NCBI RefSeq assembly: GCF_008704395.1
Contig: NZ_CP023695.1
Coordinates: forward strand, 1,178,001-1,242,000
DNA from: Streptomyces alboniger
Lineage (GTDB): Bacteria > Actinomycetota > Actinomycetes > Streptomycetales > Streptomycetaceae
Length of the DNA: 64,000 nt
Direction: 5' to 3'
Position numbers and translations under genes: made by a program. Positions 14,280-28,683 of this stretch are shown piece after piece (positions within the stretch are counted from its first letter, which is position 1; each line of letters opens with the position of its first letter). The notes under the pieces were generated by a model. That model saw nothing but the letters and a program-made list of their open reading frames with translations, ran no database searches and was not told where the DNA came from.

Positions 14280-15131
14280 ATGACCGGCACGCGGAAACAG
14301 GCTGATCAGAAGCGGAAACAGACTGATCGGAACAGGGAGCCGCACGGCGGGCCACGGGAGAGGCAGCCGAAGACGGCCGCCGGCTCCGTCCAGTCCGTGG
14401 ACCGCGCGGTGAGCGTTCTGGAGATCCTCGCGCGGCACGGCGAGGCCGGAGTGACCGAGATCGCCGACGAGTTGGGCGTCCACAAGTCGACGGCCTTCCG
14501 ACTCCTCGGGGTGCTCGAGAACCGCGGTCTGGTGGGCCAGGCCAAGGATCGCGGGAAGTACTTCCTGGGTGCGGGCGTACTCCGCCTCGCGGGGGCGGCG
14601 GCAGTGCGCATGGACATCTCCCAGGAGGGCGGCCCGGTCTGCCGCGAACTCGCGGACGAGCTGGGCGAGACCGTCAACATCGCGGTCCTCGACGACGACG
14701 CGGCGGTCAACATCATGCAGGCGCGCGGCCCGGCCTCCGTGACCGCGCAGAACTGGCTCGGCAGGCGCACCCCGCTGCACGCCACATCCAGCGGCAAGGT
14801 GCTGCTCGCCCATCTGCCGACGACGCTGCGCGAGGGCCTGATCGCCCGCACACTCCCCCGCATGACCGAGCACACGGTCACCGGCACCGTGGCGCTGCGC
14901 GGCGAGCTGGAGACCGTCGTGGAGCGGGGCTTCGCCATCGCCGTCGAGGAGTTGGAGGTGGGGCTCGCCGCCGTCGCCGCGCCCGTGCGCGCCCACGACG
15001 GCAAGGTGATCGGGGCGCTCAGCGCGTCGGGGCCGGTGTACCGGCTGACCGAGGACCGCCTGACCGAGCTGGCCAAGCGCACGGTCGCGGCGTCGGTGGA
15101 GCTGTCCCGGCGGATGGGGTACGGCTTCTGA
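14280..15131 (+). CDS. IclR-family transcriptional regulator
   Basis: A 283-residue regulator. A basic, low-complexity N-terminus (residues 1-35) precedes the winged HTH (SVDRAVSVLEILARHG, then VTEIADELGVHKSTAFRLL), and the C-terminal IclR effector domain follows from about residue 115. It is divergent from the ferredoxin/reductase pair and sits just upstream of the demethylation operon, so it probably controls both. The sensed ligand may be a methylamine intermediate or glyoxylate-type acid, but that is a guess. ATG 14280 is preceded by GTGAGAG. Confidence 0.9.
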   Translation: MTGTRKQADQKRKQTDRNREPHGGPRERQPKTAAGSVQSVDRAVSVLEILARHGEAGVTEIADELGVHKSTAFRLLGVLENRGLVGQAKDRGKYFLGAGVLRLAGAAAVRMDISQEGGPVCRELADELGETVNIAVLDDDAAVNIMQARGPASVTAQNWLGRRTPLHATSSGKVLLAHLPTTLREGLIARTLPRMTEHTVTGTVALRGELETVVERGFAIAVEELEVGLAAVAAPVRAHDGKVIGALSASGPVYRLTEDRLTELAKRTVAASVELSRRMGYGF

Positions 15132-15222
15132 CAGCGCGCTCCCTGCGAACCGCCGTGGGCGGGACCGGTCTCCCCGGTCCCGCCCACGCGCGTACCGGCG
15201 AGGTCTCGCCACGTCCCCGCTT

Positions 15223-15270
15223 GTTTCACGAAGGGACAACTCCGCCGTTTCGCGAAGGGTTAACTCCGCC
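15223..15270. repeat. Tandem 24-bp repeat in promoter of demethylation operon
   Basis: Two head-to-tail 24-base units (15223-15246, 15247-15270) match at 21 of 24 positions. Each has a core GTTTC(A/G)CGAAGGG containing a TTCGCGAA-like palindrome. They end four bases before a TTGACG -35 box. Placement immediately upstream of the promoter suggests paired binding sites for the IclR regulator. Confidence 0.7.
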
Positions 15271-15273
15271 CCC

Positions 15274-15314
15274 TTGACGGCCTCTTGATGGCGTTCCCAC
15301 TATGTCTCTCATAG
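15274..15314 (+). promoter_or_regulatory. Promoter of the dehydrogenase-oxygenase operon
   Basis: A TTGACG -35 box (15274-15279) and a CACTAT -10 box (15298-15303) are separated by 18 bases. The -10 overlaps a perfect 5-bp inverted repeat CTATG-N5-CATAG (15300-15314), which could be an operator. The GTG start of the first gene is at 15357. Confidence 0.55.
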
Positions 15315-15356
15315 CGCAACCCATCGTGTAGTACGCAACAGCAGAGGAGTCTGGCC

Positions 15357-18994
<3,638 letters not shown>

Positions 18995-19009
18995 CCGCAG
19001 GAGGCACAG

Positions 19010-20164
19010 GTGTCCCCCACCTACGACGTGATCGTGATCGGCCTCGGCGGCATGGGCAGCGCCGCCGCCCACCACCTGTCCGCGCGCGGCGCCCGCGTCC
19101 TCGGCCTGGAGAAGTTCGGCCCGGTGCACCACCACGGCTCCAGCCACGGCGGTTCCCGCATCACCCGGCAGTCCTACTTCGAGGATCCCGCGTACGTCCC
19201 GCTGCTCCTGCGCGCCTACGAGCTCTACGACCGCCTCGAACAGGACACCGGCCGCGAGATCGCCACCCTGTGCGGCGGCGTGATGCTCGGCCGCCCCGAC
19301 AGCCGCCCGGTGTCCGGCTCACTGCTCTCCGCCGAGCGGTGGGGGCTGCCGCACGAGATGCTCGACGCGAAGGAGATACGCCGCCGCTTCCCGACCCTCA
19401 CCCCGCGCGCGGACGAAGTGGCGCTGTACGAGGCGCGGGCGGGTCTCGTCCGCCCCGAGAACACCGTGGCCGCTCACCTCCAGCTCGCCACGCGCGACGG
19501 CGCCGACCTGCACTTCGAGGAGCCGATGACGCGCTGGGAGCCCTACCGGGACGGCGTGCGCGTCCACACCGCCGAGGACACCTACACGGCGGGCCAGTTG
19601 GTGATCTGTCCCGGCGCCTGGGCGCCGCGGCTGCTCACCGATCTGGGGGTGGCGTTCAGCATCGAGCGACAGGTCATGTACTGGTTCCAGCCGACCGGAG
19701 GGGTCCGGCCCTTCCTTCCGGAGAACCACCCGATCTACATCTGGGAGGACGCACAGGGCGTACAGGTGTACGGCTTCCCATCCATCGACGGGCCCGAGCT
19801 GGGTGCCAAGGTGGCCTTCTTCCGCAAGGGCACGCCCTGCACCCCGGAGACCATCGAGCGCACGGTCCACGACGACGAGGTCGCCGCGATGGCCGACCAG
19901 GTGGGCCGGTTGATCCCGTCCCTCCCCGGCCGCTTCCTCAAGGCCGCGACCTGCATGTACTCCAACACGCCCGACGAGCACTTCGTCATCGCGCGCCATC
20001 CGGCCCACCCCGAGGCGGTCACCGTCGCGGCCGGATTCTCCGGCCACGGCTTCAAGTTCGTACCCGTGGTCGGCGAGATCGTCGCCGACCTGGCACTGGA
20101 CGGCACCACCGGACACCCCATCGACCTCTTCGACCCCAGCCGTCTCACCGCCGCGCCCGCCTGA
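19010..20164 (+). CDS. Monomeric sarcosine oxidase / N-methyl amino acid oxidase
   Basis: A 384-residue FAD amine oxidase of the MSOX/SolA family. It has the dinucleotide motif [12 protein letters not shown], the family motif SSHGGSRI, and Cys315 in KAATCMYSN, which matches the cysteine that holds FAD covalently in monomeric sarcosine oxidase. GFSGHGFKF near the C-terminus is also typical. It would oxidise sarcosine to glycine, formaldehyde and H2O2. N-methyltryptophan oxidase activity cannot be excluded from sequence, but the neighbours favour sarcosine. GTG 19010 follows an AGGAGG ribosome site, 15 bases after the previous gene. Confidence 0.88.
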
Positions 20165-20190
20165 GGAGCGCCCGCCCGAGGAGTACGACC

Positions 20191-21312
20191 GTGACGACGA
20201 CCCCCTTGCCCCCCAGTCTCATCGCCACCCTCCCCGGCCGCTACTACACCGACCCGGAACTCTTCCGGCGGGAACAGGAGCGCGTCTTCGAGGCCCTCTG
20301 GTTCTGCGCGGTCCGCAGCGCCGACCTCGACAAGCCGGGCGCCTTCCGCACGGTCCAGGTCGGCCGGGAGAGCGTCCTGGTCACCCGCTCGCGCACCGGG
20401 GCGCCGCGCGCCTTCCTCAACGTCTGCCGGCACCGCGGCGCCCGCCTGTGCACCGAGGAGTCCGGGCAGGTCCGCCGCGCCCTCCAATGCCCGTACCACG
20501 CCTGGACGTACGACCTCGACGGCAAGCTGATCGCCGCGCCCGACCTGATGAAGATGCCGGACGTCGACCGCTCCGCCTACGGCCTGGTCGAGGTGGCCCT
20601 GCGGGAGTGGCTCGGCTACACCTGGGTGTGTCTGGCGGACGAACCGCCCTCCTTCGAAGAGACCGTCATCGGCGCCGCGGCCGAACGTCTGGGTGACGCG
20701 GCGTCCATCGAGCGCTACGGCACCGAGCGGCTGGCACTCGGCAAACGCGTCACGTACGACGTACGCGCCAACTGGAAGCTGATCGTCGAGAACTTCATGG
20801 AGTGCTACCACTGCGCGACCATTCATCCCGAACTGACCGACGTCCTGCCGGAGTTCGCGGGCGGATTCGCCGCGCAGTACTACGTCGGGCACGGCGCGGC
20901 GTTCGGCGAGGAGGTCGGCGGCTTCACGGTCGACGGCAGCGCGGGCTTCGGCCGCCTCCCCGAGGTCGGGGACCACCAGGACCGCCGCTATTACGCGGTC
21001 ACCGTGAAACCGACCGTGTTCCTCAACCTCGTCCCCGACCACGTGATCCTGCACCGCATGTTCCCGCTGGCCGAGGACCGCACGGTCGTCGAGTGCGACT
21101 GGCTGTACGCACCCGACGTCGTCGCGTCCGGCGCCGACCTGTCGAAGTCCGTGGAGCTCTTCCACCGGGTCAACGCCCAGGACTTCGCGGCCTGCGAGCG
21201 CACCCAGCCCGCGATGGCGTCACGTGCCTACCGCGAGGGCGGGGTGCTGGTGCCGACCGAGCACCACATCGGGATCTTCCACGAGTGGCTGAGGAGACAA
21301 CTCGATTCGTAG
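20191..21312 (+). CDS. Rieske oxygenase, glycine betaine/choline monooxygenase type
   Basis: A 373-residue Rieske non-haem iron oxygenase alpha subunit. The Rieske cluster uses C79-x-H81 and C100-x2-H103; the catalytic iron site is in ENFMECYHCATIHPEL with H207 and H212. This motif is typical of GbcA (glycine betaine demethylase) and choline monooxygenase relatives. With the downstream-step enzymes upstream in the operon, conversion of glycine betaine to dimethylglycine plus formaldehyde is the best fit; stachydrine or another quaternary amine is possible. No GbcB-type reductase is adjacent; the ferredoxin and reductase at 12512-14091 could supply electrons. GTG 20191 has GAGGAG upstream. Confidence 0.85.
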   Translation: MTTTPLPPSLIATLPGRYYTDPELFRREQERVFEALWFCAVRSADLDKPGAFRTVQVGRESVLVTRSRTGAPRAFLNVCRHRGARLCTEESGQVRRALQCPYHAWTYDLDGKLIAAPDLMKMPDVDRSAYGLVEVALREWLGYTWVCLADEPPSFEETVIGAAAERLGDAASIERYGTERLALGKRVTYDVRANWKLIVENFMECYHCATIHPELTDVLPEFAGGFAAQYYVGHGAAFGEEVGGFTVDGSAGFGRLPEVGDHQDRRYYAVTVKPTVFLNLVPDHVILHRMFPLAEDRTVVECDWLYAPDVVASGADLSKSVELFHRVNAQDFAACERTQPAMASRAYREGGVLVPTEHHIGIFHEWLRRQLDS

Positions 21313-21321
21313 CAACGCCCC

Positions 21322-24300
21322 TTACGCCGTGGCGGCCGGGCGCTTGTACATCCGCGTCGCCGTGATCTCCCCGTGCACCGTCTCGCCGTCGGGGTCGTCG
21401 GGGTCGCGCTGCGGCAGGCCAGGGCGCAGGTGCTCCTCGACGCTGATGTACTTCAGGCCCGCTCGCAGGTCCGCGTCATTGCGCAAGCGGATGACCAGCG
21501 GGAACTCCGCGAGCGCCGTGGTGTCGAACAGGCCGGTCGTGTAGAGCAGCTGCACACCGAGCGCGTCGGAGACGGCCCGCTGGAGCTCCAGGAGGTACGT
21601 GGCGTTGGCGCGGCCGATGGGGTTGTCGAGGAAGAGCGTGCCCGCGTGGCGGTGCTTGTCGCGGCCCCGGTCGTTGCTGCGCAGGGCGGCCATCGTGCAG
21701 TACAGGGCGATGGCCGCGGTGAGCAGCTGGCCGCCGGAGAAGACGTCGCCCATCTGTCCGACGGGCACCCGCTCGGCGCGCAGCACGGCGTCCGGCTTCA
21801 GGATCTCGACGGCGACACCGCGCGGCTCCAGGGCGGCCTGGACACCGCGCAGCAGCAGGGACATGCCGTCGCGCCGCATGTCCGAGTTCTTCTTCACGGC
21901 CGCGCGCGTGGCCTCGTCGATGACCTCGCCGAGGCGCTCGACGAGGGTGGCCTGGTCGGGCTCCTCGAAGCGGACCCGCAGGAACTCCTGGCCCGACCAC
22001 TCCCCGAGCCCCTCGGGCAGGCGGGACAGCCGCTGGGCGGACCTGAGCGTCGCGAGGGCGGACTCGACCAGGCCGCGCAGGCGGTCGACGATGCTGTCGC
22101 GGTTGCGCTCCAGCTGCTCCAGCTCGTCGGTCAGCACCCGCAGCCGGGGCGCGAAGGCGTCGGCCCACTTCTTGGCGTGCTCGGGCAGCGCGGAGGCGGG
22201 CAGCTCGCGGATCTGCTGGCGAGCGGGGGTGCGGACCTGCTCGTACCGCGTGGAGTTCGCGTGGCGTACGAGGATGTCGCTCGCCTCGCGGACGGCGGAC
22301 TCCGCCGTCGACAGGTCGGCGGCGCAGCCCCGCAGCGAACGCCGGGTCTCGGCGGCTGCCTGGCGGGCCTCTTCGAGGGTTCCGGGATAGGCCTCGGGGT
22401 CCTCCTCGGGCTCCTCGTGGTGTTCGCGCAGGAGGTCCCGCAGGAGGGCGGCCGTCTCGTCGAAGCCGCCCGCGGCGTCCTCCGTGGCGCGGTGGGCCTG
22501 GAGCAGCGCGGCGTGGGCCTCCTTGGCACGGCCCAGCGCCTCGGTGTGCGCGGCCAGTTCGCCGGTGGCGGTGCGCAGCAGCGCCTGGGCCTGCTCGGCG
22601 TCGGCGGGCACCAGCTCGTCGGGCAGCTCGGTGTGTGCCTCACCGTCCTCGGGGGCGTGCCGCTCGGCCTCGCCACGCAGCCGGCCCAGCTGCTCGCTCG
22701 CGGCGGCGGCGCGGGCCTCGATGAGCTGGACCTGCGCCTCCGCGCGTGCGGCGGCGGCCTGGCGGGAGGGGCCGTCGGAACCGTCGGTGCCTTCGAGGAG
22801 CAGGGCCGCGCGGGTACGGACCTTGTTGCTGAGGCGGTCGAGCTCGGCGAGGGCGGCGCTCTCGTCGCTCTCCGCGCGGGCCTGTTCGGCCCGCAGGTCG
22901 GCGCCGACGCCCACCTTCTCGTAGAGCTGCGATGCCGCGCGGTAGGCCTCGCGGAGGGCGGGCAGCGACGTCTTGGGAGGCTCCGCGTCCTGCGGTACGT
23001 CCTCGGGGGCGCCGGCGATCTCGGCGCGCTCGGCGCGCAGCGCGCGGGCGGTGCGGCGGGCGTCGTCGGCGGCGCGCTGGGCGGCGCGGCGGTCCTCGTC
23101 GGCAGCACGGGCGCGGTCCAGGCAGGTCTGGGCACGGGCCTCGTACTCGACGGCGTCGTCGGCCAGTTCGCGCAGCTTGGCCTGCCAGCCGGCCCGCTCA
23201 CGGAGCCGGAAGGCGAGGCCCGCGAGGGCGTCGGCGGCACGGCGGGCGCGCTGCGCGGCCTCTTGGCGCTCGTCCCGCACGCGTGCCGCCTCCGCGGCGG
23301 CCTCGTCGGCCTCGGCGCGCGCGGTGCGGGCCTCGGCCAGCTCCGCTTCGGCTTCCTCGGCGAAGGCGCGGGCCTCCCGCGCGGCGGTGGCGAGTTCGGC
23401 GAGGCGCCCGCTCGGGCAGCCGGTCCGCCAGGAGGCGAGACGCGCGGCCAGCTCGCGGTCCTTGGCGAGCCGGACGGCGAGCGCGCGGATCTCCTCGTCC
23501 CGCTGGGCGGCCCGCGCGCGCAGCGCCTGCCGCTCCTCGTCGGCGGCGTGCTCGTCGTGCATGGCCGGGTTCGGCGGTACGAGAAACACGCCGCTGTCCG
23601 TGGCCTGCTCGCCCGGTGTGGGGGCGAGGAGGGCGGCGGCGGTGCCTACGGCGACGGCCGAGCGGGGCAGCAGGGCGGCGTCCGCGAGGGCTTCGCGGGC
23701 GCGGGCGTGGGTGTCGGGGTCGGTGATGACCACGCCGTCGACCAGCTCGGGCCTGGCGGCGAGCACGCGCGCGTGGTCGGCGGGGTCGACGGCCTGGGCG
23801 AGGTAGCGCCAGCCGGGCAGGGCGGGGATGCCGTGCTCGCCGAGGAACTCGACGGTGGCGAGGACGTCCGGGCCGGGCGGCAGCAGTCCGCCGTCACCCA
23901 GTGCCCCGAGGATGCGGGAGTCGTCGGCGGCCGCGGTGCGCAGGTCGAAGAGCTGCCGCTCGGCGGAGGCGACGCCCTCGTCGAGCAGTGCCCGCAGGTC
24001 GTCGGCCGAGCGGTCCAACGCCTCTACGGAGAGGGTGTTCTCCGTGAGGGCCTCGGCTCCCTGGCGGGGCTGTGGCACGCCGCTGCCGCCGTTCTTGGCG
24101 GGCAGGCTGAGGAGTTCGGCGAGCCGCTCGTCCCCGGCGATGGACTCGGCGGCGCGGCGCTCCGCGTCGTGGGCGGCCTCGGCGGCGGTCGCGGCGTCCG
24201 AGGCGCGGGCGGCGGTCAGCTCGGCACGGGCCTCGGCGGCGGCCGTCTCCTTGGCGTGGTCCGCGGCCCGGCGGGCGGCCTCGCGCGCGGTGTCCCACGC

Positions 24301-25941
24301 GGCGACGGTGGTCTTCTCGGCGTCACTCGCGGCGAGGGCGGCACGGGCGGGGTCGGCGTCGGGGGCGGTGTCGTCGAGCCAGCCCGCGCGGACGGCCTCC
24401 GCGGTCTCCTGCTCGACCTCGGTGAGGCGCTGCTTCAGGTGCCCCGCCTCGCTGCGGGCCCGCTGGGCCTCGGTGGCGGCGGCGGTGGCGTCGCGGTGCG
24501 CGGTCTCGCCGGTCTCCTGGAGGGCGGCGGAGCGCTCCTCCTCTTCGTTGGCGAGGTTCTCGGCGCCTTCGGCGGCCGTGTGCAGGGCGCGGACGAGGTC
24601 GGACGCGGCCTGCGCGCGGGCGGCGAGCGCGGGCGCGGCGTCGCGCTCGGCCTCGCGGATCGCGGCGGCCACGCGCGCGGAGCGGTCGGCTGCCGCGCGG
24701 TGGCGCAGCACGGCCTCGGCGGCCTGCCAGGCGGCGTGCAGCGTACGGGCGTCGGCAAGCTCGCGGCGCTGGGCCGCGGCGGCCTTCTCGGCGACGGTGA
24801 GCGCCAAGGAGGCGTGGCGGTAGGCCAGTTCGGCGGAGATCAGGGCGCTCTTGCCGCGGGCCTGCTCGGCCTGGGTGACGGTGTGGGCTGCGGCGGTGAC
24901 CTGCTCGGCCAGCGTGGCGGCGCGGCCCCGCTCCTCTACGGCGCGCGCGGAGAGGCGGCGGGCCAGGGTGCGGGTCCTGCGCTCGGCGGCCGCGTGGACG
25001 TCACGCGCGCGTGAGCGGGTCTCGGCGGCGTCGACGATGCGTCCGAGCAGGTCGACGGAGCCCGCGGTGAAGTCCCGCTCGGCCATCAGCTCGGACCGTC
25101 GGCCCAGCTTGTTGCCGAAGCCGTGGACGAGGTCGGCGAGGCCGTCCGTGTCGCGCGTGTCGGTGACGGCGCGCAGCAGCAGGTCGGTGAAGTCGGAGTC
25201 CTTCTTGACGGCGAAGAGGCCGGCGGCCTCGCCCTCGTCGGCGTTCATCTCCCGCTGGTAGCGGAAGAGTTCGGGGTCGAGGCCGAGGTCGCCGAGGTGT
25301 TCGTTCCAGCGGTCGTGGATCTCTTCCCAGTGCACTTCGAGGTGGGGGTACGCCTTGCCGGCCTCGGTCAGTGCGTCGCGGAAGCCCTTCATGGTGCGCC
25401 GCCGGCCCTGCGCGCCCGAGGCGCCCTCCGCGGGGGGGCGTACGGCGGTGGACTCGGCGACCGGCAGCGAGTCCAGGCTCATGCCGGGTCCGGGCCGGAA
25501 GGAGTACCAGGCCTCGGCGAACTTCCGCGGGTCGTTCGAGACCTGCCGCCCCCGCCACTCGCTGACCTTGCCGGCGACCACGCACTCGCCGGTGAGGGTG
25601 TGCTGCCACTCCAGGGCGACGTGCCCGCAGTCGTCGGCGAGCAGGAACTTGCGCAGCACGCCGGAGCTGGCGCCGCCGAGGGTGTTCCGGTGGCCCGGCA
25701 GCATCACCGAGAAGATCAGCTTGAGCAGGACGGACTTGCCGCCGCCGTTCTCCAGGAAGAGCACGCCCGCGGGGGCGGGGCGGCGCGGCGGTCCTGTCGG
25801 CTCGTCCTCGAAGAACTCCGCCTGGGTGGGCGCGGGGTCGGGCACCTCGGCGCCCACGCCGCGCAGGTCGAGCACGGTGTCGGCGTAGCGCGCACCGGCC
25901 GGACCGATGGAGTAGAGGCGGATCCGGGACAGCTCGTACAT
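21322..25941 (-). CDS. Large SMC-like ATPase (MukB/JetC/SbcC-like)
   Basis: A 1,539-residue SMC-type ATPase. The Walker A motif LENGGGKSVLL lies near residue 64. A very long Ala/Glu/Arg-rich coiled-coil region runs from about 300 to 1,330 with a hinge-like insert near 650-770. The C-terminal head has the ABC signature FSGGQ near 1,400 and Walker B TLFLDNP near 1,434. The extra-long hinge and N-terminal head resemble MukB/MksB and Wadjet JetC rather than chromosomal Smc (about 1,190 aa). It is the third gene of an operon with kleisin- and KITE-like partners. The family can act in chromosome organisation or in cleaving foreign plasmids; no nuclease subunit is visible here. Confidence 0.85.
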   Translation of the reverse strand: MYELSRIRLYSIGPAGARYADTVLDLRGVGAEVPDPAPTQAEFFEDEPTGPPRRPAPAGVLFLENGGGKSVLLKLIFSVMLPGHRNTLGGASSGVLRKFLLADDCGHVALEWQHTLTGECVVAGKVSEWRGRQVSNDPRKFAEAWYSFRPGPGMSLDSLPVAESTAVRPPAEGASGAQGRRRTMKGFRDALTEAGKAYPHLEVHWEEIHDRWNEHLGDLGLDPELFRYQREMNADEGEAAGLFAVKKDSDFTDLLLRAVTDTRDTDGLADLVHGFGNKLGRRSELMAERDFTAGSVDLLGRIVDAAETRSRARDVHAAAERRTRTLARRLSARAVEERGRAATLAEQVTAAAHTVTQAEQARGKSALISAELAYRHASLALTVAEKAAAAQRRELADARTLHAAWQAAEAVLRHRAAADRSARVAAAIREAERDAAPALAARAQAASDLVRALHTAAEGAENLANEEEERSAALQETGETAHRDATAAATEAQRARSEAGHLKQRLTEVEQETAEAVRAGWLDDTAPDADPARAALAASDAEKTTVAAWDTAREAARRAADHAKETAAAEARAELTAARASDAATAAEAAHDAERRAAESIAGDERLAELLSLPAKNGGSGVPQPRQGAEALTENTLSVEALDRSADDLRALLDEGVASAERQLFDLRTAAADDSRILGALGDGGLLPPGPDVLATVEFLGEHGIPALPGWRYLAQAVDPADHARVLAARPELVDGVVITDPDTHARAREALADAALLPRSAVAVGTAAALLAPTPGEQATDSGVFLVPPNPAMHDEHAADEERQALRARAAQRDEEIRALAVRLAKDRELAARLASWRTGCPSGRLAELATAAREARAFAEEAEAELAEARTARAEADEAAAEAARVRDERQEAAQRARRAADALAGLAFRLRERAGWQAKLRELADDAVEYEARAQTCLDRARAADEDRRAAQRAADDARRTARALRAERAEIAGAPEDVPQDAEPPKTSLPALREAYRAASQLYEKVGVGADLRAEQARAESDESAALAELDRLSNKVRTRAALLLEGTDGSDGPSRQAAAARAEAQVQLIEARAAAASEQLGRLRGEAERHAPEDGEAHTELPDELVPADAEQAQALLRTATGELAAHTEALGRAKEAHAALLQAHRATEDAAGGFDETAALLRDLLREHHEEPEEDPEAYPGTLEEARQAAAETRRSLRGCAADLSTAESAVREASDILVRHANSTRYEQVRTPARQQIRELPASALPEHAKKWADAFAPRLRVLTDELEQLERNRDSIVDRLRGLVESALATLRSAQRLSRLPEGLGEWSGQEFLRVRFEEPDQATLVERLGEVIDEATRAAVKKNSDMRRDGMSLLLRGVQAALEPRGVAVEILKPDAVLRAERVPVGQMGDVFSGGQLLTAAIALYCTMAALRSNDRGRDKHRHAGTLFLDNPIGRANATYLLELQRAVSDALGVQLLYTTGLFDTTALAEFPLVIRLRNDADLRAGLKYISVEEHLRPGLPQRDPDDPDGETVHGEITATRMYKRPAATA

Positions 25942-26007
25942 GGCGGCGGACTCTCGTCGTAAGTCGTGGGGAACGGCGGGGAGGTGGGGGGGGCGGGGTC
26001 TGCGGAG

Positions 26008-26901
26008 TCAGGAGTGGAAGGGCAGCCCCGCGTCGGCGGCCAGCTCCAGGTCGTCGGTGTCTTCGGGGGGCAGCAGCGTCGCCGAGCCGTCCGTGACCGG
26101 GACGACGCCGAGTTCGAGGAGTTCGGCCATGGCCGCGCTGCCCGCCATGTCGCGGACCTGGAGCTGGTAGCGCGCGGTGGTGCGGTACGTGCCTCCGGAG
26201 TCGTCGCCCGTGCGCTGGAGGAAACCGGAGTCGGTGAGGAAGGCGACGGCCTTGCCGACGATGCCGGTGGTCGAACCGGCGAGGCGGCGGGCGTCCTTGG
26301 TGGCTCCGGTCGAGCTGCGCCGCGCCCAGATCCGCCAGGCGGCCTCCAGGCCGGGGGCGTCGGTGGCCGGGTCGGTGTTCTCGCCCTGTTCCTCGGCGCG
26401 CTCCTCCAGGCGGTGGCAGGCCTGGCGCACGAAGGCGTCGACGCCGTTGACCGTGACGCGGCCGATGTATCCGTCGTCGGCGAGGTCCTCGGGGCGCGGG
26501 AAGGCCATGGCGGCGACGGCGAGGTGGGCGAGGCCGTGCAGGAAGCGGTCGGTGGAGTCGGTCGCGGCGCGGCGGGCGTAGTCGCCCATGCGGACGGCGA
26601 AGACGGAGTCCTCGGCGGCGGTCACGGCCATGCCCGCGCGCGGGGACACCTCCAGGACGACGAGTCCGAGTCCGGTGGCGACGGCGTCGGCGAGCCGCGC
26701 GAAGGGCGGGTCCTCGCGGTAGCGGCGGAGCAGTTCGCCGTACTCCTGGTCGCGGGCGGGCTGGAGCTTGGGCTGGAGGCCGAAGGAGACGAGCCGAGCG
26801 GCGTCGGCGGCGTCCGCCGGGGTGACGGGTGCGGGGGCGGCGGGCGCCGTGACGGGGTCCGGCTCGCCCCACGCGGCGTGCTCTGCGGGGTGGTCGGTCA
26901 C
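26008..26901 (-). CDS. KITE/MukE-like subunit of SMC system
   Basis: A 297-residue protein not assigned to a named family with certainty. After a Pro/Ala-rich start (1-35) it is mixed alpha/beta with a winged-helix-like C-terminal half (STTGIVGKAVAFLTDSGFLQR, then TYRTTARYQLQVRDMA). Size and place between a kleisin-like gene and a large SMC gene match MukE/MksE/JetB. Start GTG 26901 has AAGGAG 8 bases upstream and overlaps the stop of a 51-residue ORF as GTGA. The SMC gene starts 66 bases downstream. Confidence 0.7.
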   Translation of the reverse strand: MTDHPAEHAAWGEPDPVTAPAAPAPVTPADAADAARLVSFGLQPKLQPARDQEYGELLRRYREDPPFARLADAVATGLGLVVLEVSPRAGMAVTAAEDSVFAVRMGDYARRAATDSTDRFLHGLAHLAVAAMAFPRPEDLADDGYIGRVTVNGVDAFVRQACHRLEERAEEQGENTDPATDAPGLEAAWRIWARRSSTGATKDARRLAGSTTGIVGKAVAFLTDSGFLQRTGDDSGGTYRTTARYQLQVRDMAGSAAMAELLELGVVPVTDGSATLLPPEDTDDLELAADAGLPFHS

Positions 26902-27053
26902 GGCGTGTGCTCCTTGCGGCGGTGAATCGGTCGTACGGCTCCGGGGGTGCCCGGCGGCGTGGCGTGCGGTCTCGTCGTGGCGTGCGGTCTCGCTGTGATG
27001 TGCGGTCTCGTCGTGATGTGCCGGCGCGTCGCGGCGTGCTGTCCCGTGGCCAT
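26898..27053 (-). CDS. Coupled 51-residue repeat ORF in SMC operon
   Basis: A small ORF joining two SMC-complex genes. Its ATG overlaps the stop of the upstream gene as TGATG (27055-27051), with AAGGAGG 7 bases before the ATG; its TGA overlaps the next start as GTGA. The product is basic and His/Thr/Pro-rich, with hexapeptide repeats TTRPHI, TARPHA, TTRPHA from an 18-bp tandem repeat. No known family. It may be a real microprotein, or an upstream ORF whose translation carries ribosomes to the KITE gene. Confidence 0.5.
   Translation of the reverse strand: MATGQHAATRRHITTRPHITARPHATTRPHATPPGTPGAVRPIHRRKEHTP
26959..27048. repeat. Five tandem 18-bp units in SMC operon
   Basis: Units start at 26959, 26977, 26995 and 27013, with a degenerate fifth at 27031; consensus GTGRYGTGCGGTCTCGTC. 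They fill most of the 151 bases between the kleisin-like and KITE-like genes and keep the small ORF open because 18 is a multiple of 3. Copy number may vary between strains. Confidence 0.8.
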
Positions 27054-28579
27054 CAGGCGGCCTCCTTGCGGTCGGCGGCCATGCCGACCGCGTCCAGGAG
27101 GGCGGTGCCGACGATGAGGTCGGCGCCGCCGAACTCCTCGTCGTCCAGCTCGGTGCCGTCGTCCACGGCGAAGAGGAGCTTCTCCTCGCCCTGGCGGTAA
27201 GCGGTGCCGACCGGCGGGCTGGCCGCGTGGACGGCCAGCAGGATGACCAGGTACGGCAGTTCGCGGTCCCGCAGGCGGGCCTCGGCGAGCAGTCCCGAGA
27301 GGCGGCGCGGCGCGTCGGCGGGCAGGTCGAGCAGTTCCATCGCGCTCGCGAGCTGTTCCTCGCTGAAGCGGCTGTCGTCCGGGGTGGCGATCAGGTCCGG
27401 CTCGGGCATCTCCGCGCCGAGGTGCTCTCGCTCCATGGGAGGGGTGAGCAGTATGTCGACGAGGTCGCCGACCCGTACGGACACGGGGGTGCGCAGGCCG
27501 GTTCCCCGCGCGAAGAAGGCGTCCGTGACGCGGATCGCCTGCTCGGCGGGGAGCGGCAGGACCGGCGCGACGAGCTGGCCGTAGAGGTCGAGTCCCGCGC
27601 GCGCGGTGGGCGTCGCGAAGGCCTGCCTGTCCTGCTCGGCGCGGAACAGCGGGCCCGCTTCGAGGAGGCGGGACTGGAGCTGGGTGTGGCGGCGGATGCA
27701 GTCCTTGACGATGTCGACCAGCTCGGCGGCGCGGCGCTTCTGCTCGGGGTCCTCGGACTCGTCGCGGGCCTTGCGGATGTTGGTCAGGATGGCGTTCTCG
27801 TGGCGGTAGCGGTCGGCGACGTGGTCGAGCGCCTCCGCGATCATGTCGGGGACGGCTTGGAGCCAGTCCACCGCGCGGACGTTGCGCCGGGTCGCGTCGA
27901 GGGCTTTGCGCAGCGTTTCCGAGTACTGCACGGTCCGGTAGCGGGCCTGCTCGGCGGCGAGCTGGGCGTCGGCGAGCCTGCCGCGGCTGATCAGCACCTC
28001 CAGCTTCACCTCGGCGGCGATCTGGGCGCTGGTGACGTCGGTGTCGAGGGCGCCCACCAGGACGTTCACGGCCTCGTCGGTCGTGCGCAGGTAGACGCTG
28101 CCGCCGTACCCGGAGACCTCTTCGAGGAGCTTGAAGTCGTAGTCCCTGCGGACGTACGTCCCGTCGGGCGCGAAGGTGCCGTACACCGCGCGGAACCCGC
28201 GGTCGACGCTGCCGACGTTGATCAGGTTCTCCAGGACCCAGCGGGCGACGCGCTCGTGCTCGGCGGCGGGCCGGGCCGGGGCCTGCGCGGCGACGCGCGG
28301 GAGCAGCCTGGCGACGATCTGCTCGTGGTCGGCGCCGGTGTCGAAGTCCATGTTGAGCGTGACGAGGTCGATGGCGGACAGGGCCACCTCGGCCATCGCG
28401 TACACCGAGTACTCGCCCGCGAGGTTGGCCTTGCGCACGTCGAGGTCGTGCAGCGGGGCCGTGCAGGCCAGGGCGCGCAGGCGGCGCGCCAGGCCCTCGT
28501 CGGCGGCCGGGCCCAGAGCGGGCCTCGGCCCCGCGCTGAGCTGGGGCGGAGCGGTGTCCGTGGTGGCAGGCGAAGTCAC
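27053..28579 (-). CDS. Kleisin/MukF-like subunit of SMC system
   Basis: A 508-residue mostly helical protein with no family I can name securely. It has an N-terminal globular part, a central long-helix region (about 190-330) and an acidic C-terminus (VDDGTELDDEEFGGADL). Size and its position as first gene of a three-subunit operon ending in an SMC ATPase suggest the MukF/MksF/JetA role of bridging SMC heads. GTG 28579 is chosen since earlier frames run into the GntR gene. No Shine-Dalgarno site is seen; TAGTCT 8-13 bases upstream looks like a -10 box, so a leaderless transcript is likely. Confidence 0.65.
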   Translation of the reverse strand: MTSPATTDTAPPQLSAGPRPALGPAADEGLARRLRALACTAPLHDLDVRKANLAGEYSVYAMAEVALSAIDLVTLNMDFDTGADHEQIVARLLPRVAAQAPARPAAEHERVARWVLENLINVGSVDRGFRAVYGTFAPDGTYVRRDYDFKLLEEVSGYGGSVYLRTTDEAVNVLVGALDTDVTSAQIAAEVKLEVLISRGRLADAQLAAEQARYRTVQYSETLRKALDATRRNVRAVDWLQAVPDMIAEALDHVADRYRHENAILTNIRKARDESEDPEQKRRAAELVDIVKDCIRRHTQLQSRLLEAGPLFRAEQDRQAFATPTARAGLDLYGQLVAPVLPLPAEQAIRVTDAFFARGTGLRTPVSVRVGDLVDILLTPPMEREHLGAEMPEPDLIATPDDSRFSEEQLASAMELLDLPADAPRRLSGLLAEARLRDRELPYLVILLAVHAASPPVGTAYRQGEEKLLFAVDDGTELDDEEFGGADLIVGTALLDAVGMAADRKEAA

Positions 28580-28586
28580 GGTGCAC

Positions 28587-28592
28587 AGACTA
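28587..28592 (-). promoter_or_regulatory. Putative -10 box of leaderless SMC operon
   Basis: TAGTCT on the minus strand fits the Streptomyces TAnnnT -10 pattern and lies 7 bases from the GTG start at 28579. That would place transcription start at or next to the start codon. No clear -35 box is seen. Confidence 0.35.
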
Positions 28593-28683
28593 GGTCCTCG
28601 GTCTGACAACGGTCGAAACGGCGCAGAAGCGACCGGCCCGGCCGGGACGGGGACTGGCCCGCGCCTGTGCGGCAGCGGCCGGC

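Follow-up and report, generated by a model that had tools for sequence, protein, structure and literature searches.

Type III Wadjet (JetA3B3C3D3) is an anti-plasmid system in which a kleisin (JetA), a KITE subunit (JetB) and an ATPase of the structural maintenance of chromosomes (SMC) type (JetC), encoded in the order A-B-C, are accompanied by the Toprim nuclease JetD. RecN and Smc5/6 are SMC-like DNA-repair proteins, and the nuclease-less kleisin-KITE-SMC complex MksBEF of Pseudomonas aeruginosa belongs to another Wadjet lineage. In the excerpts from which the literature is cited throughout, MksBEF is described as likely JetABCD minus JetD and MukBEF as having apparently replaced Smc-ScpAB in its hosts (PMC10586767), and Wadjet systems are reported from a DefenseFinder count to be enriched in Actinobacteria, mostly toward the ends of Streptomyces chromosomes (PMC10482375). 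The operon described here lies in a 64,000-nucleotide stretch of Streptomyces alboniger DNA (contig NZ_CP023695.1, positions 1,178,001 to 1,242,000 of the forward strand; referred to below as the window) and is assigned, from its sequence, to the type III Wadjet lineage, with a predicted kleisin (JetA), KITE subunit (JetB) and SMC ATPase (JetC) (Table 1). It resembles type III Wadjet in its matches to the JetA3 and JetC3 models, its gene order and its intact SMC ATPase motifs, and differs from it in having no adjacent or genome-detected JetD and in being core rather than accessory. The reading favoured here, with moderate confidence, is that of a nuclease-less, MksBEF-like condensin, derived from a Wadjet and recruited into the DNA-damage response.

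The kleisin-KITE-SMC gene set proposed by the initial annotation was confirmed, three minus-strand open reading frames (ORFs) being found with the sizes, order and positions that it gave. JetC matched the PADLOC JetC3 model PDLC00588 over residues 1-1537 (1388.2 bits), JetA matched the JetA3 model (618.5 bits), and JetB was 43-51% identical to the protein in the same position of four JetD-bearing operons. Searches of Pfam and NCBIfam gave no family name for any of the three, and a search of solved-structure sequences with JetC returned a single, irrelevant row. The predicted structure of JetB gave modest Z scores, with entries for MukE, alone or with MukF, in the top rows and a JetABC chain of Wadjet in fifth place; for JetA the best Foldseek row was a MukBEF chain of MukF length, again a modest match. 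These matches, modest and obtained with weak models, are consistent with the kleisin and KITE folds expected for the two small subunits, and it is in subunit fold that the operon resembles enterobacterial MukBEF. The asparagine that follows the aspartate of Walker B was present in all 22 aligned JetC rows, those of JetD-bearing operons included. A grouping of JetC with SbcC, the counter-case raised by the initial annotation, was not found: JetC matched JetC3 models, and the Pfam SbcC Walker-B model had no match in it. Kinship with SbcCD/Rad50 was rejected, the two PF13558 matches of the genome (E≤0.001) lying elsewhere and the operon partner JetA being a JetA3 protein. Lamassu kinship was also rejected, since the PADLOC matches of the three proteins (E≤1) were all to JetC or JetA and included no LmuA or LmuB.

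JetD was found on neither side of the operon, as the initial annotation had said. The S. alboniger genome was searched with three models and gave no match to JetD_C (PF09983) at E≤1, none to DUF2399 (PF09664) at E≤10 and none to JetD3 (PDLC00594). Since JetD, the nuclease that defines a Wadjet, was searched for and not found, the operon is strictly speaking no Wadjet. Between the two roles that the initial annotation had offered, a chromosome-organising condensin and a defence system with a remote or different effector, the first is favoured; a remote JetD as effector is rejected for this genome by the three models.

The distribution of the operon was determined in several genome samples. Among 150 Streptomyces genomes JetA was matched in 147 and JetA or JetC in 149. 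Core JetC pieces were present in two genomes missed with JetA, G050 and G073 (88% and 75-84% identity), and G121, in which the JetA match was weak, had a core JetC at 79-80%; only G079, 78% complete, had neither. The Streptomycetaceae family sample gave a match in 120 of 121 genomes and the core operon in 119, in 16 of the 17 genera sampled, and in an order sample all 132 Streptomyces matched. No core-like match was found in 15 genomes of two sister families, which gave only two divergent matches (45% and 32%). In a class sample of 296 genomes 43 matched; 28 of these were Streptomyces, and the other 15 belonged to a single further family, in which at least one genome (G166) was unmatched. This family is here called Frankiaceae because JetB names one genome and JetB matches name Parafrankia, Frankia and Pseudofrankia. 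Its core-type copies were 61-64% identical to the query. Plasmid relatives were found in 4 of 72,556 records, all at less than 60% identity.

Median pairwise ratios of nonsynonymous to synonymous substitution (dN/dS; Nei-Gojobori, rough at these distances; 200 pairs each) were 0.089 for JetA (79 loci), 0.137 for JetB (78 loci) and 0.164 for JetC (59 loci), JetA being somewhat favoured because the loci are the 80 best JetA matches; five neighbouring genes gave higher medians (0.185-0.215). By these measures the operon is under purifying selection. Its distribution makes it a core gene set of Streptomycetaceae rather than a defence island, and shows neither the patchiness nor the association with mobile or variable DNA that mark Wadjet defence as accessory. 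Internal stops or broken frames were observed in the core copies of G505, G498 and G119, and are either sequencing errors or decay.

JetD was found with other copies. With the JetD3 model at E≤0.001, 21 of the 150 Streptomyces genomes were matched, 11 strongly (E 1e-49 or better; G007, G022, G032, G057, G058, G086, G090, G091, G094, G107 and G138) and 10 weakly and partially (E 2e-7 to 8e-4, model positions about 187-335; not counted as JetD); the other 139 had no strong match. All 11 genomes with a strong match carry a second JetA, 26-53% identical. More than one JetA match was found in 13 of the 150, namely these 11 and G119 and G128, and a JetC search of the last two gave only pieces of one core-type copy each. 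Fourteen divergent Jet loci were read (12 Streptomyces, 2 Frankiaceae; JetA 26-57% identical to the core JetA). JetD stood directly after JetC in all 13 with sequence past JetC, seven of which had been picked knowing of a JetD3 match there and six (L113-L116, L171 and L172) by JetA alone; in the fourteenth, L162, the contig end falls inside the operon. No JetD match was found in the 80 named core loci, 70 of which extend at least 1.5 kb past JetC. JetD therefore goes with the divergent copies and not with the core copy. None was found in ten Frankiaceae loci, and no search elsewhere in those genomes was made; beyond the JetC ORF at least 5 kb of sequence is available in seven of these loci, 1.2 kb in L153 and 91 bases in L160, and L161 stops short of JetC.

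A JetA tree was built from 35 rows. A single branch, supported at 98/95, set the rows without JetD (12 core and 9 Frankiaceae) apart from the others, and one change of state accounted for the JetD label, L162 being left out of the count. We infer a single loss of JetD; the change is read as a loss because the analyst chose to root the tree on those JetD-bearing rows that diverged most, and the tree carried a warning of long branches. A type III JetABCD would have lost JetD in an ancestor common, by descent or transfer, to Frankiaceae, and the JetD-less operon would then have become fixed in the core genome of Streptomycetaceae. That it is shared by these two families and not with the sister families suggests that the operon was transferred or was lost repeatedly.

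A promoter motif was found directly before JetA. In the window TGTC[A/G]G-N10-TANNNT lies at 28608-28587 on the minus strand, and its -10 box ends 7 nucleotides (nt) before the JetA GTG. When the sequences upstream of JetA in 79 core loci, the window among them, were aligned, a block before the JetA start was conserved in most, and.TGTC[A/G]-N11-TA[A/G]TCT was present in all 79, at -30 in 78 and at -29 in one. Two named loci too short for the alignment also have the motif, L083 in the same form and L039 as TACTCT. On the JetA strand TGTC[A/G]G-N10-TA[A/C/G]TCT occurs once and only once in each of the 80 named loci, followed by a GTG after 7 nt in 79 and after 6 nt in one. A search of both strands of 3.17 Mb of locus sequence gave the [A/G] form 79 times at spacing 11 and not once at spacings 5-10 or 12-16. 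The rigid distance between promoter and GTG supports GTG 28579 as the JetA start.

The same motif recurs in the genome before genes of DNA repair. TTGTCAG-N10-TANNNT was found at 30 sites, the JetA site among them, against one for the reversed control, and 14 of the 30 precede ORFs (selected by the analyst) that match repair, recombination or replication families: RecA, UvrA, UvrB, Ung, RuvC, RadA, PcrA, a UvrD/Rep-like helicase, an SCO1167-family helicase, a RarA-like ATPase, a PD-(D/E)XK nuclease, Ogt and DnaX, with one further ORF that we take to be a HelY-like helicase. Several of these ORFs are partial at the locus edge and score below the curated whole-protein cut-off. The remaining sites precede other genes or nothing recognisable. 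A start codon stands exactly 7 nt past the -10 box at 9 of the 30 sites, those of JetA and RecA included. PafB- and PafC-type genes (WYL/WCX, HTH_PafC proteins) are encoded near the Pup ligase gene. In the excerpts cited, the Mycobacterium tuberculosis PafBC motif is TGTCGG, TGTCAG or TGTCAC, N10, TA, N3, T (PMC8151990), the ultraviolet-inducible S. rimosus recA promoter is TTGTCAGTGGC-N6-TAGggT, and related recA-type motifs precede 67 S. coelicolor genes, with DNA repair as the top group (PMC2375139); PafBC is activated by single-stranded DNA (ssDNA; PMC11804915). By this comparison the predicted JetA promoter has the published actinobacterial PafBC/recA DNA-damage grammar. In 15 of 19 loci from other Streptomycetaceae genera a relaxed form of the motif was found just before a start codon.

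On these grounds the operon is proposed to encode a three-subunit, ATP-driven DNA loop extruder of the MukBEF/MksBEF kind. Dimers of JetC, held together by JetA and JetB, would be loaded onto chromosomal DNA, where they would form loops by extrusion or compact the nucleoid. The complex would stabilise chromosomes that are damaged or entangled while these are repaired and segregated; circular DNA would not be cut. Because of the promoter grammar, expression should rise with ssDNA and DNA damage, alongside recA, uvrA, uvrB, ruvC and radA. ScpA, the only Smc-ScpAB component looked for, is also encoded, so that Smc-ScpAB is presumably present; on the simplest account the operon is kept by Streptomycetaceae beside it and is probably switched on with DNA damage. 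The MukBEF-type mode of working is better supported than the purpose. A more specific history is put forward only tentatively, as a real possibility that stops short of the probable: an anti-plasmid Wadjet would have dropped its nuclease, kept its motor under a PafBC-type promoter and become a dedicated damage-response condensin, near-universal and serving genome maintenance in the manner of Smc5/6 or RecN beside Smc-ScpAB.

Several observations weigh against this interpretation. The predicted structures are weak (pLDDT, the predicted local distance difference test score, of 66 and 56), with no Foldseek match at E≤0.001. Two Streptomycetaceae seem to be without the core operon: the one relative found in G445 is divergent (JetA 26%, JetC 28%), and in G499 neither a JetA nor a JetC gene was found; the operon is thus not indispensable, and these two genomes are natural tests of the cost of its loss. 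The JetA site departs from the usual TGTCAGTG at two bases, and the M. smegmatis PafBC motif was unconserved in S. venezuelae according to an initial search described in the excerpt of PMC9380542. The motif was not found in 4 of the 19 loci of other Streptomycetaceae genera, nor upstream of JetA in any of the ten Frankiaceae loci in the interval searched; control by DNA damage is therefore not shared by the whole JetD-less clade. It was found in 5 of the 14 divergent Jet loci, which are JetD-bearing where readable: in L162, L163, L164, L165 and L169, four of them with JetD confirmed, TGTCAGTG-N8-TANNNT starts 30-62 nt before the JetA ORF, about 0.03 occurrences being expected by chance over all 24 Frankiaceae and divergent loci. 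The promoter alone is therefore no mark of a non-defence role, and active Streptomyces Wadjets may also be under damage control.

The sharing of the promoter with divergent loci bears on a rival account, in which JetABC is still a defence system that senses small circular DNA and either relies on a non-homologous nuclease in trans or silences its target and leaves it uncut, in the way that Smc5/6 acts on viral episomes. Its subunits and ATPase motifs are of Wadjet type; the operon is nevertheless near-universal and upstream-syntenic, no plasmid relative exceeds 60% identity, strong JetD3 matches are missing from 139 of the 150 Streptomyces genomes, and small circular plasmids replicate in laboratory Streptomyces. 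We regard continued defence as unlikely, while invading DNA could supply the ssDNA that activates PafBC (PMC11804915). A general, constitutive second condensin, serving the long linear chromosome or compaction of the spore nucleoid and drawing only basal expression from the damage-type promoter, is judged somewhat less likely again. Such a role would agree with P. aeruginosa MksBEF, likely a product of JetD loss, which aids chromosome organisation and segregation (PMC10586767), with a family-wide distribution that suits housekeeping and with the Frankiaceae loci, which are JetD-less too and have no promoter motif; it is harder to reconcile with a promoter grammar that recA and the uvr genes also have and that is strictly conserved in Streptomyces, and with the presence already of ScpA and hence, presumably, of Smc-ScpAB. 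That the operon is a decaying remnant left by the loss of JetD can scarcely be credited: JetD is missing and a few copies (G119, G498 and G505) are fragmentary or stop-bearing, but this account is contradicted by the selection and retention data, the median dN/dS (0.09-0.16) being below that of the five neighbouring genes, the ATPase motifs intact and retention near-universal.

Table 1. Features of the operon (positions in the window).
Feature	Position	Strand	Basis
JetA-like kleisin (MukF/JetA role), 508 amino acids, GTG start	27053..28579	minus	
JetB-like KITE subunit (MukE/JetB role), 297 amino acids, GTG start	26008..26901	minus	
JetC-like SMC ATPase, 1539 amino acids, ATG start	21322..25941	minus	PADLOC JetC3 match, intact catalytic motifs
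JetC Walker A, ENGGGKS, residues 64-70	25732..25752	minus	alignment with JetD-bearing and JetD-less relatives
JetC ABC signature, FSGGQLL, residues 1401-1407	21721..21741	minus	alignment of relatives
JetC Walker B, LFLDNP, residues 1436-1441	21619..21636	minus	alignment of relatives
18-bp tandem repeat, 5 copies, between JetA and JetB	26958..27047	minus	
Predicted DNA-damage-type (PafBC/recA) promoter, TTGTCAG-N10-TAGTCT, leaderless geometry	28587..28609	minus	motif in the window and 80 named core loci

The tandem repeat between JetA and JetB was not seen in six other loci compared. Across 75 loci between 98 and 809 nt separate the stop codon of JetA from the conserved core of JetB, and the gap therefore seems free to evolve. 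Antisense to JetC a 1213-amino-acid ORF was observed on the plus strand (window 21373-25014); it is presumably a shadow ORF of GC bias, misleading for gene calling by length, and because of it ORF length is weak proof of a gene in this GC-rich DNA. Chance as the origin of the long ORFs of the operon was ruled out by homology and dN/dS. The core Streptomyces JetB rows have an N-terminal extension of about 20-30 residues and a C-terminal tail ending in LPFH, both missing from most JetB rows of JetD-bearing operons. To our knowledge no type III counterpart of the JetD-contact motif of JetB has been described. In type I this motif is IFDR (PMC10586767). The extension and tail are possibly linked to the loss of JetD contact.

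The upstream neighbour of the operon is taken to be a GntR regulator and the convergent downstream neighbour a Rieske oxygenase. A GntR-like gene was upstream in 103 of 110 Streptomyces loci and an MFS-like gene in 89, many of these loci being short and some species represented twice. The GntR-like gene flanks what we take to be a divergent MFS/DUF1445/LamB-like cluster, which moves with it; since it is tied to that cluster and is parted from JetA by the JetA promoter, it was set aside as a regulator of the operon. At 14280-21312 of the window, convergent to JetC, lies what we take to be a cluster for glycine betaine/sarcosine breakdown. In the 110 loci, many of which are too short to show it, genes of this cluster adjoined the core operon in only 1-8, and the cluster is therefore probably local to the strain's group.

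The operon can be set against the systems named at the outset. With P. aeruginosa MksBEF it shares a nuclease-less kleisin-KITE-SMC composition and differs in its type III lineage, its family-wide core status in actinobacteria and its damage-type promoter; unlike the hosts of MukBEF, in which Smc-ScpAB was apparently replaced, the present genome also encodes ScpA. The comparison with RecN and Smc5/6 is one of role, an SMC-type ATPase proposed to serve damaged DNA, and not of sequence, the kleisin/KITE composition here being MukBEF-like. The Streptomyces Wadjets counted with DefenseFinder are systems of the same kind in the same genus; those at chromosome ends are taken to be JetD-bearing accessory copies, and the excerpt of PMC10482375 does not mention a JetD-less core operon. 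The excerpts of PMC13121528 and PMC8410768, on Streptomyces chromosomes and Smc-ScpAB, mention work on Muk or Mks and name no Streptomyces homologue or second condensin. In the parts of the open-licence literature that were available, no description was found of a JetD-less core complex, of a second Streptomyces condensin or of damage control of Jet systems, and the operon has apparently not been described before.

Streptomyces, the foremost genus of antibiotic producers, also serves as a model for the organisation of linear chromosomes. Partial Wadjet calls in it may mislead, because the PADLOC models match the core genes and strong JetD3 matches occur in only 11 of 150 genomes. The presence of JetD-bearing relatives in the same genus makes the core operon a natural experiment on a Wadjet motor without its nuclease. 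If the damage-response reading is true, a second family-wide SMC complex with a damage-type promoter would alter how DNA damage, replication stress and chromosome folding are studied in these bacteria, and an immune system would have been turned to repair, with both forms still found in one genus.

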